From: Clostridia bacterium
GTDB lineage: Bacteria > Bacillota > Clostridia > Christensenellales > CAG-138
Reading direction: 5' to 3'
Assembly (NCBI GenBank): GCA_017614315.1
Contig: JAGACA010000010.1
Span: forward strand, 1 to 40,510
Length of the DNA: 40,510 bases
Below, piece after piece: positions 1-4,176 of the stretch. The position numbers and the translations under genes were made by a program. Positions within the stretch are counted from its first letter, which is position 1, and every line of letters starts with the position of its first letter. The notes under the pieces are model-generated. The model made no database searches. It saw only the letters and a list, made by a program, of their open reading frames with translations, and was not told the DNA's origin.

Positions 1-391
1 GGAATTCGGAAAGCCGGAGGTGCAGAGCGCCATCCTGAACTGGATGCTCCAAGGCTACAGACTCCTGCAGGAGGAAGGCTTTACGCCTCCGCAATCCGTC
101 ATTGACGCGACTCAGGCTTACTACCACGACAGCGATAAGATCGCGCAGTTCGCGGAGGATTGCCTTGTGGTCGATGCCGGGGCCGAGACCAAGACCTCGG
201 AGATCTATGACGCTTACCGGACATGGTGCGCCGGGAACGGCTGTTTCGTGGAAAACAACAAGAATTTCATCGCGGAACTGCGGAAGTTCGATGTGGGCAA
301 GGTCATAAGAAAGCGCCCGAAATCCGGTGGAGAGAAAACCACGGTCCTCTTGGGATACGCCCTTCGCGAGGCTGTGGAGTTCTTGAAATAA
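1..391 (+). CDS. P4/D5-family phage primase-helicase, C-terminal fragment (partial)
   Basis: The reading frame is open from the left edge (first full codon at base 2) to TAA at 389-391, so only about the last 129 residues are visible and the true start lies upstream. The visible part reads like the end of a phage/plasmid primase of the P4 family (D5-type helicase followed by a C-terminal winged-helix region): EFGKPEVQSAILNWMLQGY, then a segment ending in a basic stretch (VIRKRPKSGG). The Walker motifs would be upstream, outside the window. In this family the protein primes and unwinds DNA at the element's own origin. A candidate origin begins 6 bases after the stop codon, which fits that job. 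The following genes (capsid, recombinase) place it in a phage-like satellite or integrative element. Family assignment is from recognition of the C-terminal pattern only. A generic mobile-element replication helicase is the alternative. Confidence 0.62.
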   Translation, partial: EFGKPEVQSAILNWMLQGYRLLQEEGFTPPQSVIDATQAYYHDSDKIAQFAEDCLVVDAGAETKTSEIYDAYRTWCAGNGCFVENNKNFIAELRKFDVGKVIRKRPKSGGEKTTVLLGYALREAVEFLK

Positions 392-396
392 ATCTC

Positions 397-484
397 TGGG
401 GCACATGGGGCAGCAGACTTTGGTTATTTCCTATAGAAAATCGCTTTTTTGAAACAACCATAATTGCTTGCCCCACCTGCCCCA
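397..484. other. candidate replication origin: inverted pairs of 9-bp-phased TGGGGCA iterons around an AT-rich core
   Basis: TGGGGCA occurs at 397-403 and 406-412. Its inverse TGCCCCA occurs at 469-475 and 478-484. Each pair is spaced exactly 9 bases start to start. The 56 bases between the pairs are about 68 percent AT, against a GC-richer surround. Short iterons flanking an AT-rich core next to the replication gene are the known layout of SaPI/PICI origins, and this array lies directly after the primase-helicase gene. The arms can also form a 13-bp stem with a 2-nt internal mismatch, so a terminator-like or structural RNA role is possible. The symmetry is seen; the origin function is inferred. 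Confidence 0.5.
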
Positions 485-518
485 AGCGAAAGGTGGTGAC
501 GATATGGACGAAAACAAC

Positions 519-600
519 TCTCCCCGTGGGCCTTAGGGCGGTCTAAATCTCTGTGACCTTTCAGGCCGGACAGCGGCGTGGGGTCTCGCGTGCAAAAAAC
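519..600 (+). other. GC-rich structured non-coding segment, possible packaging (cos-like) or leader region
   Basis: This stretch between the origin-like array and the capsid operon holds no convincing gene. It can fold with CCCC (522-525) facing GGGG (580-583) and GGCCT (529-533) facing AGGCC (563-567). From memory, similar GC-rich stretches lie just before the packaging genes of some Firmicutes cos-type phages. That memory is unverified here, so the packaging role is a guess. A regulatory leader for the following small genes is the main alternative. The remaining bases up to 652 are an ordinary leader ending in the Shine-Dalgarno sequence CAGGAGG. Confidence 0.22.
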
Positions 601-652
601 AGAAATCAAACGGGGTATTAACCCTACATTTTTCAAACAGGAGGAAAATACG

Positions 653-913
653 ATGTTTCACAGATTCATTTACCAAAAATCTGCACCGGTTTCACAGGCA
701 AGTGCGAAGGATTTCTCTACGAAAAAGTACACCTGCGTGAGGCTGATGCGCACCAAACGGGATAAGCCCGTGGCTATTCTCGAAAGCAATGACATGAAGA
801 ACTGGCACTGGCGCGTTCAGTACGGTTTCTCGTGCGTGGTCTTTCCGACCTACGAAGAGGCTATGCGCTTTTGCCGTGAACGCTTCTTCGAGCTGGACGG
901 AGGGCAGGAATGA
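653..913 (+). CDS. small protein of unknown function in the capsid operon (86 aa)
   Basis: The ATG at 653 has a strong Shine-Dalgarno sequence (CAGGAGG) about 7 bases upstream, so this start is preferred to an upstream GTG-type extension. I do not recognise the family. The N-terminal third is basic and polar, the middle carries a Trp-rich stretch (NWHWRVQYGF), and the C-terminus is acidic (FFELDGGQE). There is no signal peptide or membrane segment. The stop overlaps the next start by 4 bases (ATGA at 910-913), so translation of the two genes is probably coupled. Position between the replication module and the capsid gene suggests a satellite-specific helper of DNA handling, packaging or capsid assembly. 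That is inference from position only. Confidence 0.6.
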   Translation: MFHRFIYQKSAPVSQASAKDFSTKKYTCVRLMRTKRDKPVAILESNDMKNWHWRVQYGFSCVVFPTYEEAMRFCRERFFELDGGQE

Positions 914-2182: not shown

Positions 2183-2366
2183 TACCGTTTCCACCTATAA
2201 GGACAGGCCTTGTAGGATATCGGAAATGGAGATCGGAAACACGCTCTTCACCGTGATTTCGGTCCAGAGCGAAGCGGCAAAAGAAACGGCCTATAACAAG
2301 GTCAAAAAGCTGATTCTGGACGGTGCGGAAACGGCCCGGAAAAGTTATCAGCAAGTACACAACTAA
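2172..2366 (+). CDS. TnpW-like small transposon-associated protein (64 aa)
   Basis: The protein carries the pattern of the TnpW family of Tn4451-type clostridial elements: a polar N-terminus, then CRISEMEIGNTLFTV, then a basic helical part (AYNKVKKLILDGAETARKS). The family is found beside large serine recombinases and its biochemical role is not established. I chose the ATG at 2172 because GAGG lies 6 bases upstream. An ATG at 2166 is possible and would add two residues. The gene overlaps the last bases of the capsid gene in another frame, so expression is probably coupled to it. The recombinase starts 81 bases downstream. The short, low-complexity nature of the family limits certainty. Confidence 0.62.
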   Translation: MNSDTVSTYKDRPCRISEMEIGNTLFTVISVQSEAAKETAYNKVKKLILDGAETARKSYQQVHN

Positions 2367-2387
2367 ATGACCGAAATGACTTGATAA

Positions 2388-2495
2388 TCCTGCGATATAG
2401 AGCGAATATGTAGTACCGCTTGAAGACGGTCGGAAAGGAGGATTTTTATGAATAGTACTACAAAAACAGCATATAGACCGTCTTCTATCGCAGGA
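2388..2495. repeat. three interleaved inverted repeats spanning the recombinase ribosome-binding site and start
   Basis: Three sequences upstream of the recombinase recur as exact reverse complements in its first codons. TCCTGCGAT (2388-2396) matches 2487-2495, TGTAGTAC (2409-2416) matches 2455-2462, and GAAGACGGTC (2422-2431) matches 2476-2485. The first and third pairs are nested and would enclose the Shine-Dalgarno sequence (AAAGGAGG, 2433-2440) and ATG at 2448. The second pair crosses the third, so the two would compete or form a pseudoknot. This is the arrangement expected of a translational switch or a multi-part operator controlling recombinase synthesis. Pairings are seen; function is inferred. 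Confidence 0.5.
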
Positions 2496-4115
2496 GACAA
2501 GATCACAGCCCTTTACTGCAGGCTGTCCCGTGATGATGATCTTCAAGGTGAGAGCAACAGCATCGTCAACCAGAAGGCCATCCTCAAAAAGTATGCGGAT
2601 GACAACGGTTTCAGGAATACCATGTTTTTCGTGGATGACGGGTACAGCGGCACCAATTTCAATCGTCCGGATTGGCTCCGGCTTACGGGAATGATTGACG
2701 AAGGGAGCGTCGGCACCATCATCGTGAAGGACATGAGCCGCCTTGGAAGGGACTACCTTCAGGTCGGTATGTACACCGAGATGGTTTTCCCGACCCACGA
2801 CATCCGCTTCATCGCCATCAACAACGGCGTGGATAGCGCAAATCAGGTCGATAACGACATGACGCCCTTCATCAACATTTTCAACGAGTTCTATGCCAAG
2901 GACACCAGCAAAAAGGTCAAGGCGGTGTTCCGGGCAAAAGGTAATTCCGGAAAGCCGCTGACTACGAATCCGCCGTATGGATACCTGAAGGACCCGGCAG
3001 ACAAAAACCACTGGATTCTGGACGAGGAGGCCGCTCCGGTAGTGCGCGACATCTTCAAAATGTGTGTGGCCGGAAAAGGGCCCTCGCAAATATCCAAGGA
3101 GCTGATTCGCCGTGGTGTCCCGACCCCATCAGAGCATTATGCCGCGCTGGGGATCACATCACCGGCAAAGCCCTCGGAACAGCCCGGATTCTGGCAACAG
3201 CGCACCGTTTCGGATATCCTGACGAAACAGGAGTACCTTGGGCACACGGTCAACTTCCGGACGCACCAGAAATCGTTCAAATGCAAAAAGACGGTGTGGA
3301 ACGACCCTTCGGAATGGCTGATTTTCGAGAACACGCACGAGGCCATAATCGATCAGGAGACCTTCGATATCGTCCAGCGCATCCGTGACGGAAGACGGAG
3401 GCTCACGCCGATGGGCGAAATGCCGACCTTGTCCGGTATGCTGTACTGTGCGGATTGTGGGGCAAAGCTGTATCAGGTCAGGGCAAGAGGCTGGACGCAC
3501 GAGCAGGAGCATTTCGTATGTGCCACATACCGGAAGATCAAAGGAGGCTGTTCATCGCACCAGATTCACAATGTTCAGGTCGAGGCAATTCTGCTCCGGG
3601 AACTAAGGCGCATTACGGCATACGCCCGTGAACACGAGGATGATTTCGTGCAGCTTGTTACCAAACAGGGCGAAAAGGAACTAAACCGCCAACTCCGCGA
3701 AAGCCAGAAGGAACTCGCTCAGGCCGAGGATCGCATCCGTAAACTGGACACCATCATCCAGCGGCTCTACGAGGACAATGTGGAAGGTAAGATTTCGGAC
3801 GAGCGGTTTTCCAGAATGGCGGCTTCATACGAGGCCGAACAGAAAGCCCTCGAAAGCCGGATGTCGGAACTGCGGCAGTACATCGATTCCGCTAAGGAAA
3901 GCCAGCTGAATGTGAATTCCTTCCTCGGCATGGTGCGCAAGTACACGGAAATCTCCGAGTTATCAGCGGAGATCATACGGGCCTTCGTGGAAAAGATCGA
4001 GGTGCAGAAGCCAGAAAAGGTCCCCGGCACACGGACCAAAAAGCAGACCATCGTTATCTGGTGGAACTTCATCGGGGCCGTTGAAATCCCTGATGAGCAA
4101 AGAAAAACGGCATAA
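2448..4115 (+). CDS. large serine recombinase / integrase (555 aa)
   Basis: This is a site-specific recombinase of the large serine (TnpX/phiC31-like) class that would integrate and excise the element. The N-terminal resolvase domain (about 18-150) has the nucleophile in YCRLSRDD (Ser27) and the [14 protein letters not shown] motif. The Recombinase domain follows (PPYGYLKDP onward, about 175-275). Next is a zinc ribbon with CADC at about 333-336 and two further cysteines at about 358 and 367, then a long coiled coil (about 405-480) that usually controls directionality. The C-terminus ([14 protein letters not shown]...IVIWW) is the DUF4368-like tail common in gut Clostridia. Length and domains look complete, so it is probably active. 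It has a strong AAAGGAGG site 7 bases before ATG. It is the last gene of the element and reads toward the tRNA-Tyr junction 60 bases away, as expected for an integrase next to an attachment site. Confidence 0.95.
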
Positions 4116-4140
4116 CCAGCGTAATGCCAGCTATGCCGTT
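4106..4140. terminator. bidirectional terminator at the end of the recombinase gene
   Basis: AACGGCATA (4106-4114) pairs with TATGCCGTT (4132-4140) around a 17-base loop, and the stem includes the recombinase stop codon. On the plus strand it is followed by ATTCTTTTC. On the minus strand it is followed by TTTCTTTG. It can therefore end the recombinase transcript and also the tRNA-Tyr transcript coming the other way. Confidence 0.6.
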
Positions 4141-4176
4141 ATTCTTTTCAGAACCAAAATCCCTTAGTGAGGGGGG

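Follow-up and report, generated by a model that had tools for sequence, protein, structure and literature searches.

The stretch of DNA analysed here, referred to as the window, comprises 40,510 nucleotides from a Clostridia bacterium (assembly GCA_017614315.1, contig JAGACA010000010.1, positions 1 to 40,510) and starts at base 1 of contig C5 in an assembly of 1.71 Mb and 21 contigs. At its left edge lies a mobile element with a P4/D5-type primase-helicase, a single HK97-fold capsid protein and a large serine recombinase. This element is probably a helper-dependent phage satellite that is packaged by HK97-type cos phages and whose capsid protein redirects the size of the helper head. The left part of the element, cargo included, lies beyond the contig end, and only the right part can be read in the window. 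What we regard as the strongest evidence for a satellite is a putative cos site at 567-624, overlooked in the original prediction, which had been made from the letters of the window. The element parts in the window are as follows.

2..391, + strand: P4/D5-type primase-helicase, C-terminal 129 amino acids, cut by the contig end (domain matches)
397..484: origin-like inverted iterons, TGGGGCA at 397-403 and 406-412 and TGCCCCA at 469-475 and 478-484, with an AT-rich stretch between
567..624, + strand: cos-like packaging site, common to HK97-type prophages (sequence models)
653..913, + strand: small protein p2, 86 amino acids, ATG at 653 (no function-assigned family; homologues at the same place in relatives)
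910..1218, + strand: small protein p3, 102 amino acids, with a CxxC...CxxC pattern (sequence)
1211..2182, + strand: HK97-fold major capsid protein, 323 amino acids, without delta domain (domain matches, tree)
2166..2366, + strand: TnpW-family small protein, 66 amino acids (PF14202, E 2.1e-8)
2448..4115, + strand: large serine recombinase, 555 amino acids (Resolvase, Recombinase, Zn_ribbon_recom and DUF4368 domains)

All parts named in the original prediction are present, the iterons as a small but genuine array. The primase fragment matched Pox_D5 (E 2.3e-8) and TIGR01613 (E 2.5e-16), the latter under the whole-protein cut-off because only the primase end is present in the window, and it is 95% identical to residues 642-770 of a complete 770-residue primase in genome G144. 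The capsid protein matched nearly the whole Phage_capsid profile (E 1.5e-58) and TIGR01554 (E 4.5e-65). Scans against Pfam, NCBIfam and PHROG gave no match for p2, while p3 matched nothing in Pfam and NCBIfam and gave a single marginal PHROG match to a family of unknown function (E 0.00099); p3 is possibly a zinc ribbon, and its counterparts in relatives gave weak zinc-ribbon matches that stayed under the cut-off. As had been claimed, no portal, terminase, protease or tail gene was found between the primase and the recombinase in Pfam, NCBIfam and PHROG scans.

When the same gene order was sought elsewhere, numerous genomes belonging to the class and the phylum of the window turned out to have it, as did a plasmid of Bacillus badius. 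It runs from cargo over a P4/D5 primase, iterons, small proteins and capsid to an integration module. A search with the window capsid protein led to a 64%-identical relative in G144, where the order is complete and consists of type I restriction-modification, a helix-turn-helix (HTH) gene, the 770-residue primase, p2, p3, capsid, TnpW and recombinase. Another complete copy resides on plasmid pPM400 of B. badius NBPM-293, where the existing annotation names an AAA ATPase, type III restriction genes, an HTH regulator, a P4-family primase, a major capsid protein, TnpW and a recombinase; its capsid protein shares 97% identity with the one in G562, which belongs to the same class as the window, and in both the G144 and B. 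badius elements the HTH gene lies left of the primase. The short capsid type was present in 3 of 296 order-level, 10 of 390 class-level and 11 of 397 phylum-level genomes with the window's own excluded, whereby genomes were classed via frame length and score gap, the samples overlap slightly, and fragments at contig ends were left unclassed in the order-level count. The portal, terminase and tail genes that an ordinary prophage would have on the left side are absent from complete relatives. The capsid core is joined to three exchangeable integration modules, namely TnpW with one recombinase of about 550 residues, as in the window, two tandem serine recombinases (L136, L144, L153 and L157), or a Tn916-type tyrosine integrase (L135, L145 and L167), with a Tn916-Xis-like protein in L135. 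The 2+2 iteron array is shared as well, being present in 12 of 33 testable loci, window included (35 loci were taken, of which two were untestable), at nearly the same positions after the primase stop. The 11 other loci with this array carry TGTAGCA or TGTCGCA where the window carries TGGGGCA; larger or wider-spaced arrays were seen in seven loci and none by the exact test in 14. Tandem Repeats Finder missed the window iterons.

To compare lone capsid genes with those of phages, we used a capsid-only set defined by a length of 285-350 residues (plus two special cases) and an identity of at least 38%, a definition by which the length gap is partly constructed; the set contains near-duplicates and truncated loci. 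In the unselected list, complete frames of 349-383 residues were not seen, and a 385-residue frame in G144 is a 306-residue gene with an upstream start. Frames were defined by stops, and the absence of internal stops carries no evidential weight. None of the 42 capsid-only loci matched any of ten phage models (portal, large and small terminase, two protease-position clusters, connector, tail tube, tape measure, gp10 and tail terminator) that were derived from 62 phage loci, with names assigned according to size and position. On their own source loci, these models recovered the portal in 58 of 62 and the large terminase in 55 of 62. Pfam portals fall at the same places as the portal model, and phrog_83 (PHROGs) agreed with the small-terminase call for both prophages tested. 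A 43rd short-capsid locus, L085, was removed; its 334-residue frame gives both a portal-model and a capsid match, and its neighbours give the terminase and tape-measure matches of an ordinary phage. Across 25 element-bearing genomes no Pfam portal lies inside an element, and the nearest ones on shared contigs are more than 30 kb from the capsid gene.

The capsid proteins themselves also differ from those of phages. Only 3-51 residues precede the position aligned to window residue 17 in the 42 short proteins, compared to 82-133 in 97 phage proteins, indicating that the delta domain is missing. In a tree of 29 short and 54 phage capsid proteins, the short ones form one clade with a branch support of 100/100, thus they are not copied anew from each helper. 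The ratio of nonsynonymous to synonymous substitution rates (dN/dS) of the capsid gene was 0.05-0.30 across 39 pairs (several with dS above 1), and the element capsid genes are under purifying selection. In the comparison with G144, the capsid gene has the highest ratio of six genes (0.30), and the primase end has 0.04. Sequence relatives of the capsid protein are phage capsid proteins, and among solved structures they are capsid proteins of phages and of a gene transfer agent.

The putative packaging site was first noticed as words common to elements and prophages, in the same and in other genomes, that together make up a shared sequence of about 60 bases. Of 13 prophage stretches examined, nine have the core of this sequence close to where the small-terminase gene begins: it precedes the gene start by 42-45 bases in six, by 69 and 144 bases in two, and sits 18 bases inside the called frame in one. 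A place beside the small-terminase gene is the usual position of a cos site. A model trained on the nine prophage sites matched 49 of 56 element loci with E below 0.01 in 0.90 Mb, every time at most 921 bp from the capsid gene, on either side of it, and it matched window positions 567-624 with an E of 3.4e-12; the best E in five shuffles of the 1.2-Mb target set was 0.054. Among 62 phage loci outside the training set, the model also matched nine, two of which share one sequence. In these the match precedes the capsid gene by 5.8-9.6 kb; a good number of the loci stop near 10 kb. In Terrisporobacter phage TPDSL_ph1 the site is flanked by genes annotated as HNH and terS and overlaps a short hypothetical frame, in phi1605 and NatCom_11578 it lies between an HNH gene and an unnamed next gene, and in Javan630 directly before an unnamed gene; these four records are 48-90 kb long. 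A second model, R1, based on sequence alone and on 13 phage sites, with at most 142 candidates scored per genome, gave 567-624 as the sole hit in the window's genome (E 2.0e-15) and two weak matches only in 12 genomes of the same genus. Among the 25 element-bearing genomes, R1 found no site only in G911, and several extra sites in G562 and G404. From position and sequence we infer that 567-624 and its counterparts are cos sites, and the elements look as if they carry the packaging site of a helper phage.

The elements have defined ends. The motif [TA]AGGGAT marks the left ends; at the right ends, an inverted match to it comes after a conserved hairpin. Between these end cores, 13 elements with both ends measure 11,570-14,524 bp, despite differing cargo. 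The right boundary in the window is arranged as follows.

4099..4147: hairpin at the recombinase gene end, kept in relatives, CGGCATAG...CTATGCCG (inverted repeat I12)
4158..4170: element right end, AATCCCTTAGTGA (matches the left ends of complete relatives in inverted orientation)
4171..4196: host, apparent right half of a terminator hairpin adjoining tRNA-Tyr (by eye)
4197..4281, - strand: host tRNA-Tyr gene adjoining the insertion

Judged by eye, terminator-like hairpins adjoin tRNA-Tyr in genomes of the same genus as well. For the element of G645, the insertion site is empty and intact in four of ten congeners, where a transcription-terminator hairpin runs through it without interruption. 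In 10 of the 13 elements the host flanks on the two sides complement each other (score of at least 18), versus 19 of 156 mismatched pairs, and the observed sum was not reached in any of 100,000 permutations. Flank complementarity was not seen for the G562, G404 and B. badius elements.

What the elements carry on the left varies. Restriction-modification or defence-like genes make up the cargo of 12 of the 13 complete elements, weakly supported in three, and iron transport (FecCD, not defence) that of the one in G404. Type I restriction systems are found in G144, G562 and, by weak similarity, G164, type III systems in G498, G630, B. badius and, by gene sizes alone, G904, and type IIG-like systems in G645a and G359. 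The three elements with weak evidence for defence are G715b (methylase and OLD-like ATPase), G814 (methylase and HSDR_N-like domain) and G811 (restriction-type helicase and an otherwise unnamed partner).

The closest parallel comes from Staphylococcus aureus pathogenicity islands (SaPIs), which are of similar size, have an origin with iterons around an AT-rich stretch and use tyrosine integrases. That integrase class is also represented among the elements, by the Tn916-type enzymes of L135, L145 and L167. SaPIbov5 has the cos site of phage phi12 and a capsid-protein homologue, Ccm, which alone redirects capsid size; Ccm has an 87-residue delta domain, occupies pentamer positions to give small isometric heads and forms no capsids alone (PMC8569155). 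Like cos-type SaPIs, the elements carry a lone capsid homologue and a cos-like site, in their case adjoining each other, and the claim that a satellite with only a shell protein fits no known type was therefore overstated. Unlike SaPIbov5, the element capsid proteins have no delta domain, the window has a large serine recombinase, the cargo of relatives is mostly restriction-modification, and 10 of the 13 insertions are in apparent terminator hairpins.

Other known systems share single traits with the elements. P4-like satellites use helper heads and frequently carry defence cargo, and the P4/D5-type primase is common to both, the B. badius copy even being annotated as P4-family; unlike P4, the elements carry a capsid protein and, in the window, a serine recombinase. 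No P4-type size-determination protein (Sid) was recognised among the small proteins scanned, which had no named match; no search aimed at Sid by name was made. Tn4451/Tn4453 transposons have TnpW, a large serine recombinase, and resistance and mobilisation genes. The first two are present in the window; the primase, capsid and cos-like site set the elements apart from these transposons, and resistance and mobilisation genes of their type were not seen in the elements, mobilisation having been checked in the B. badius element. There, no mobilisation gene is present among eight annotated genes (the gene table is incomplete), and no further frame above 117 residues lies between the ends; the relaxase check concerns this element alone. 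Phage-inducible chromosomal minimalist islands (PICMIs), which are packaged as a concatemer, are small satellite islands like the elements. They are reported to have no capsid-remodelling genes (PMC10803314). Capsid-forming phage-inducible chromosomal islands (PICIs) carry a capsid protein, protease, portal, connectors and terminase (PMC10690885). A satellite-encoded capsid protein is common to both, but nothing else of that head module was found in the elements, in agreement with the original prediction of a capsid-only, satellite-like element distinct from these PICIs. Two further candidates were set aside: Charybdis elements, which are marine, without hallmark genes and unrelated (PMC12324425), and the SaPI protein Rcm, which redirects capsids without being a capsid protein itself (PMC12409344). 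A literature search at the level of listings found no description of this element family.

If the element is a satellite of this kind, its recombinase would excise it from a host transcription terminator, and replication by the primase-helicase would start at the iterons, acting as origin. When an HK97-type cos phage infects or is induced, its terminase would cut the cos site that the satellite carries and package a single unit of about 13-14 kb, with the portal, the protease, most of the shell and the tail being those of the helper. Since the named phage records that bear the site are 48-90 kb long, a cos unit of 13-14 kb should need a smaller head. The satellite capsid protein, which without a delta domain could presumably enter only shells scaffolded by the helper protein, would join a helper capsid protein that still carries this (scaffold) domain, and mixed assembly would yield a small head, much as with Ccm and SaPIbov5, to the advantage of the satellite and at the expense of the helper. 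The cargo module on the left, which in relatives is usually restriction-modification, would guard the host from other phages.

A capsid clade that is unmixed with phage capsids and matches nearly the whole Phage_capsid profile would also suit a shell built wholly from the satellite protein, with portal, protease, terminase and tail coming from the helper. We consider this unlikely, as there is no delta domain, no scaffold gene was recognised among the small proteins scanned, and no capsids form from Ccm by itself, which is the closest case studied so far (PMC8569155). There is a similarly small chance that the capsid protein is mainly a weapon that poisons helper head assembly, small-head packaging not being its purpose. 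The capsid dN/dS, the highest of six genes in the comparison with G144, is compatible with an arms race, and the cargo of relatives is otherwise mostly antiviral; however, the packaging-like site by the capsid gene in 49 of 56 loci and the narrow range of element sizes point to packaging. It is very improbable that the gene encodes an encapsulin-like compartment on a Tn4451-type transposon: an HK97-fold protein that stands alone, lacks a delta domain and has TnpW and a serine recombinase as neighbours might suggest so, but its sequence relatives are phage and gene transfer agent capsid proteins, and the gene adjoins a cos-like site, which an encapsulin does not need. A decayed prophage or chance leftover capsid gene, although some copies are damaged, was rejected and can practically be dismissed given the model scan of the loci, the conserved order, three integration modules, one capsid clade, purifying selection, defined ends and an empty site.

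Several findings nevertheless weigh against a packaged satellite with a head-redirecting capsid protein. The 87-residue delta domain of Ccm has no equivalent in the element proteins, so that co-assembly could differ. The nine prophage sites used to train the cos model had first been noticed via words shared with elements, the site was not found at the small terminase in four of the 13 prophage stretches (L305, L310, L311 and L314, in two of which the small terminase was uncalled), and it went undetected in seven of 56 element loci (G976, G911, L167, L153, L221, L154 and L057). No resident helper was found in the window's genome with the Pfam portal, and among the 25 element-bearing genomes 12 have one. 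The remainder of the window's primase had no match elsewhere in the same assembly, leaving its own left part missing, and none of 24 viral contigs tested for exact terminal repeats proved to be a circular excised form. Finally, although purifying selection on the capsid gene speaks against the decay that the original prediction named as a refutation, damaged copies also exist: in G086 C131 (L098, 149-970) an in-frame deletion joins the primase to the capsid C-terminus in a decayed copy, in G086 C54 the capsid is truncated, in G325 genes are broken, and in the second G645 copy the primase is interrupted and the right end missing.

The cos model also uncovered a second lone-capsid type, in G562 and G404 (L319, L320, L321, L324, L325, L331 and L332), with a primase (Prim-Pol/D5 in L320, the one scanned), a cos-like site and several copies per genome. 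Its capsid protein has an N-terminal extension and 437-444 residues (368 in L319), and no portal or terminase match was obtained within the fetched stretches. This suggests that lone-capsid satellites arose more than once. One second-type element is adjoined by an RHS-repeat protein with a pretoxin HINT domain (L320:3-3179). In six further loci (L323 and L326-L330), a cos-like sequence adjoins IstA/IstB (IS21-type) genes and there is a frame with a recombinase zinc ribbon, both identified by Pfam in L326, with near-identical frames elsewhere; some adjoin HsdR-like genes, and these loci are possibly another cos-bearing mobile element. In L322 (G562), a cos-like site adjoins IstA/IstB-type genes directly before a large-terminase match, and this stretch has no other head-gene match.

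Two records stand apart. The window's own genome contains a second island (L099, G000 C2) with a P4-type primase related to but different from that of the window, a 490-residue integrase-like gene and a pair of AAA/RloB-like genes, all named on the basis of their sequence; a capsid gene was looked for there and none was found. MT838964 (L212), an unverified 4.7-kb record from human faecal samples, has primase pieces, p2, p3, capsid and a 146-residue frame resembling the Xis-like one of L135. It was rejected as proof of packaging, the record being marked unverified and its preparation not established.

Overall, we lean towards a wider picture, held as a whole with less assurance than the satellite reading of this one element: a widespread, undescribed satellite family that probably has its centre in Clostridia and extends to Bacilli. 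Its single capsid protein, lacking the delta domain, would redirect heads of HK97-type cos phages, and its cargo slot would swap whole restriction systems; as a second lineage, of Prim-Pol type and with an N-terminally extended lone capsid protein, has the same cos-like site, this form of piracy would have more than one origin. Capsid piracy through one borrowed shell protein is reportedly known from one group of staphylococcal islands. If our reading is true, it would be widespread in other bacteria of the phylum and tied to exchangeable defence cargo. The shared cos-like site amounts to a concrete prediction of the helper, and provides a signature for finding satellites that methods based on gene content could miss, while the element makes it testable how a capsid protein without a scaffold domain can reset head size.

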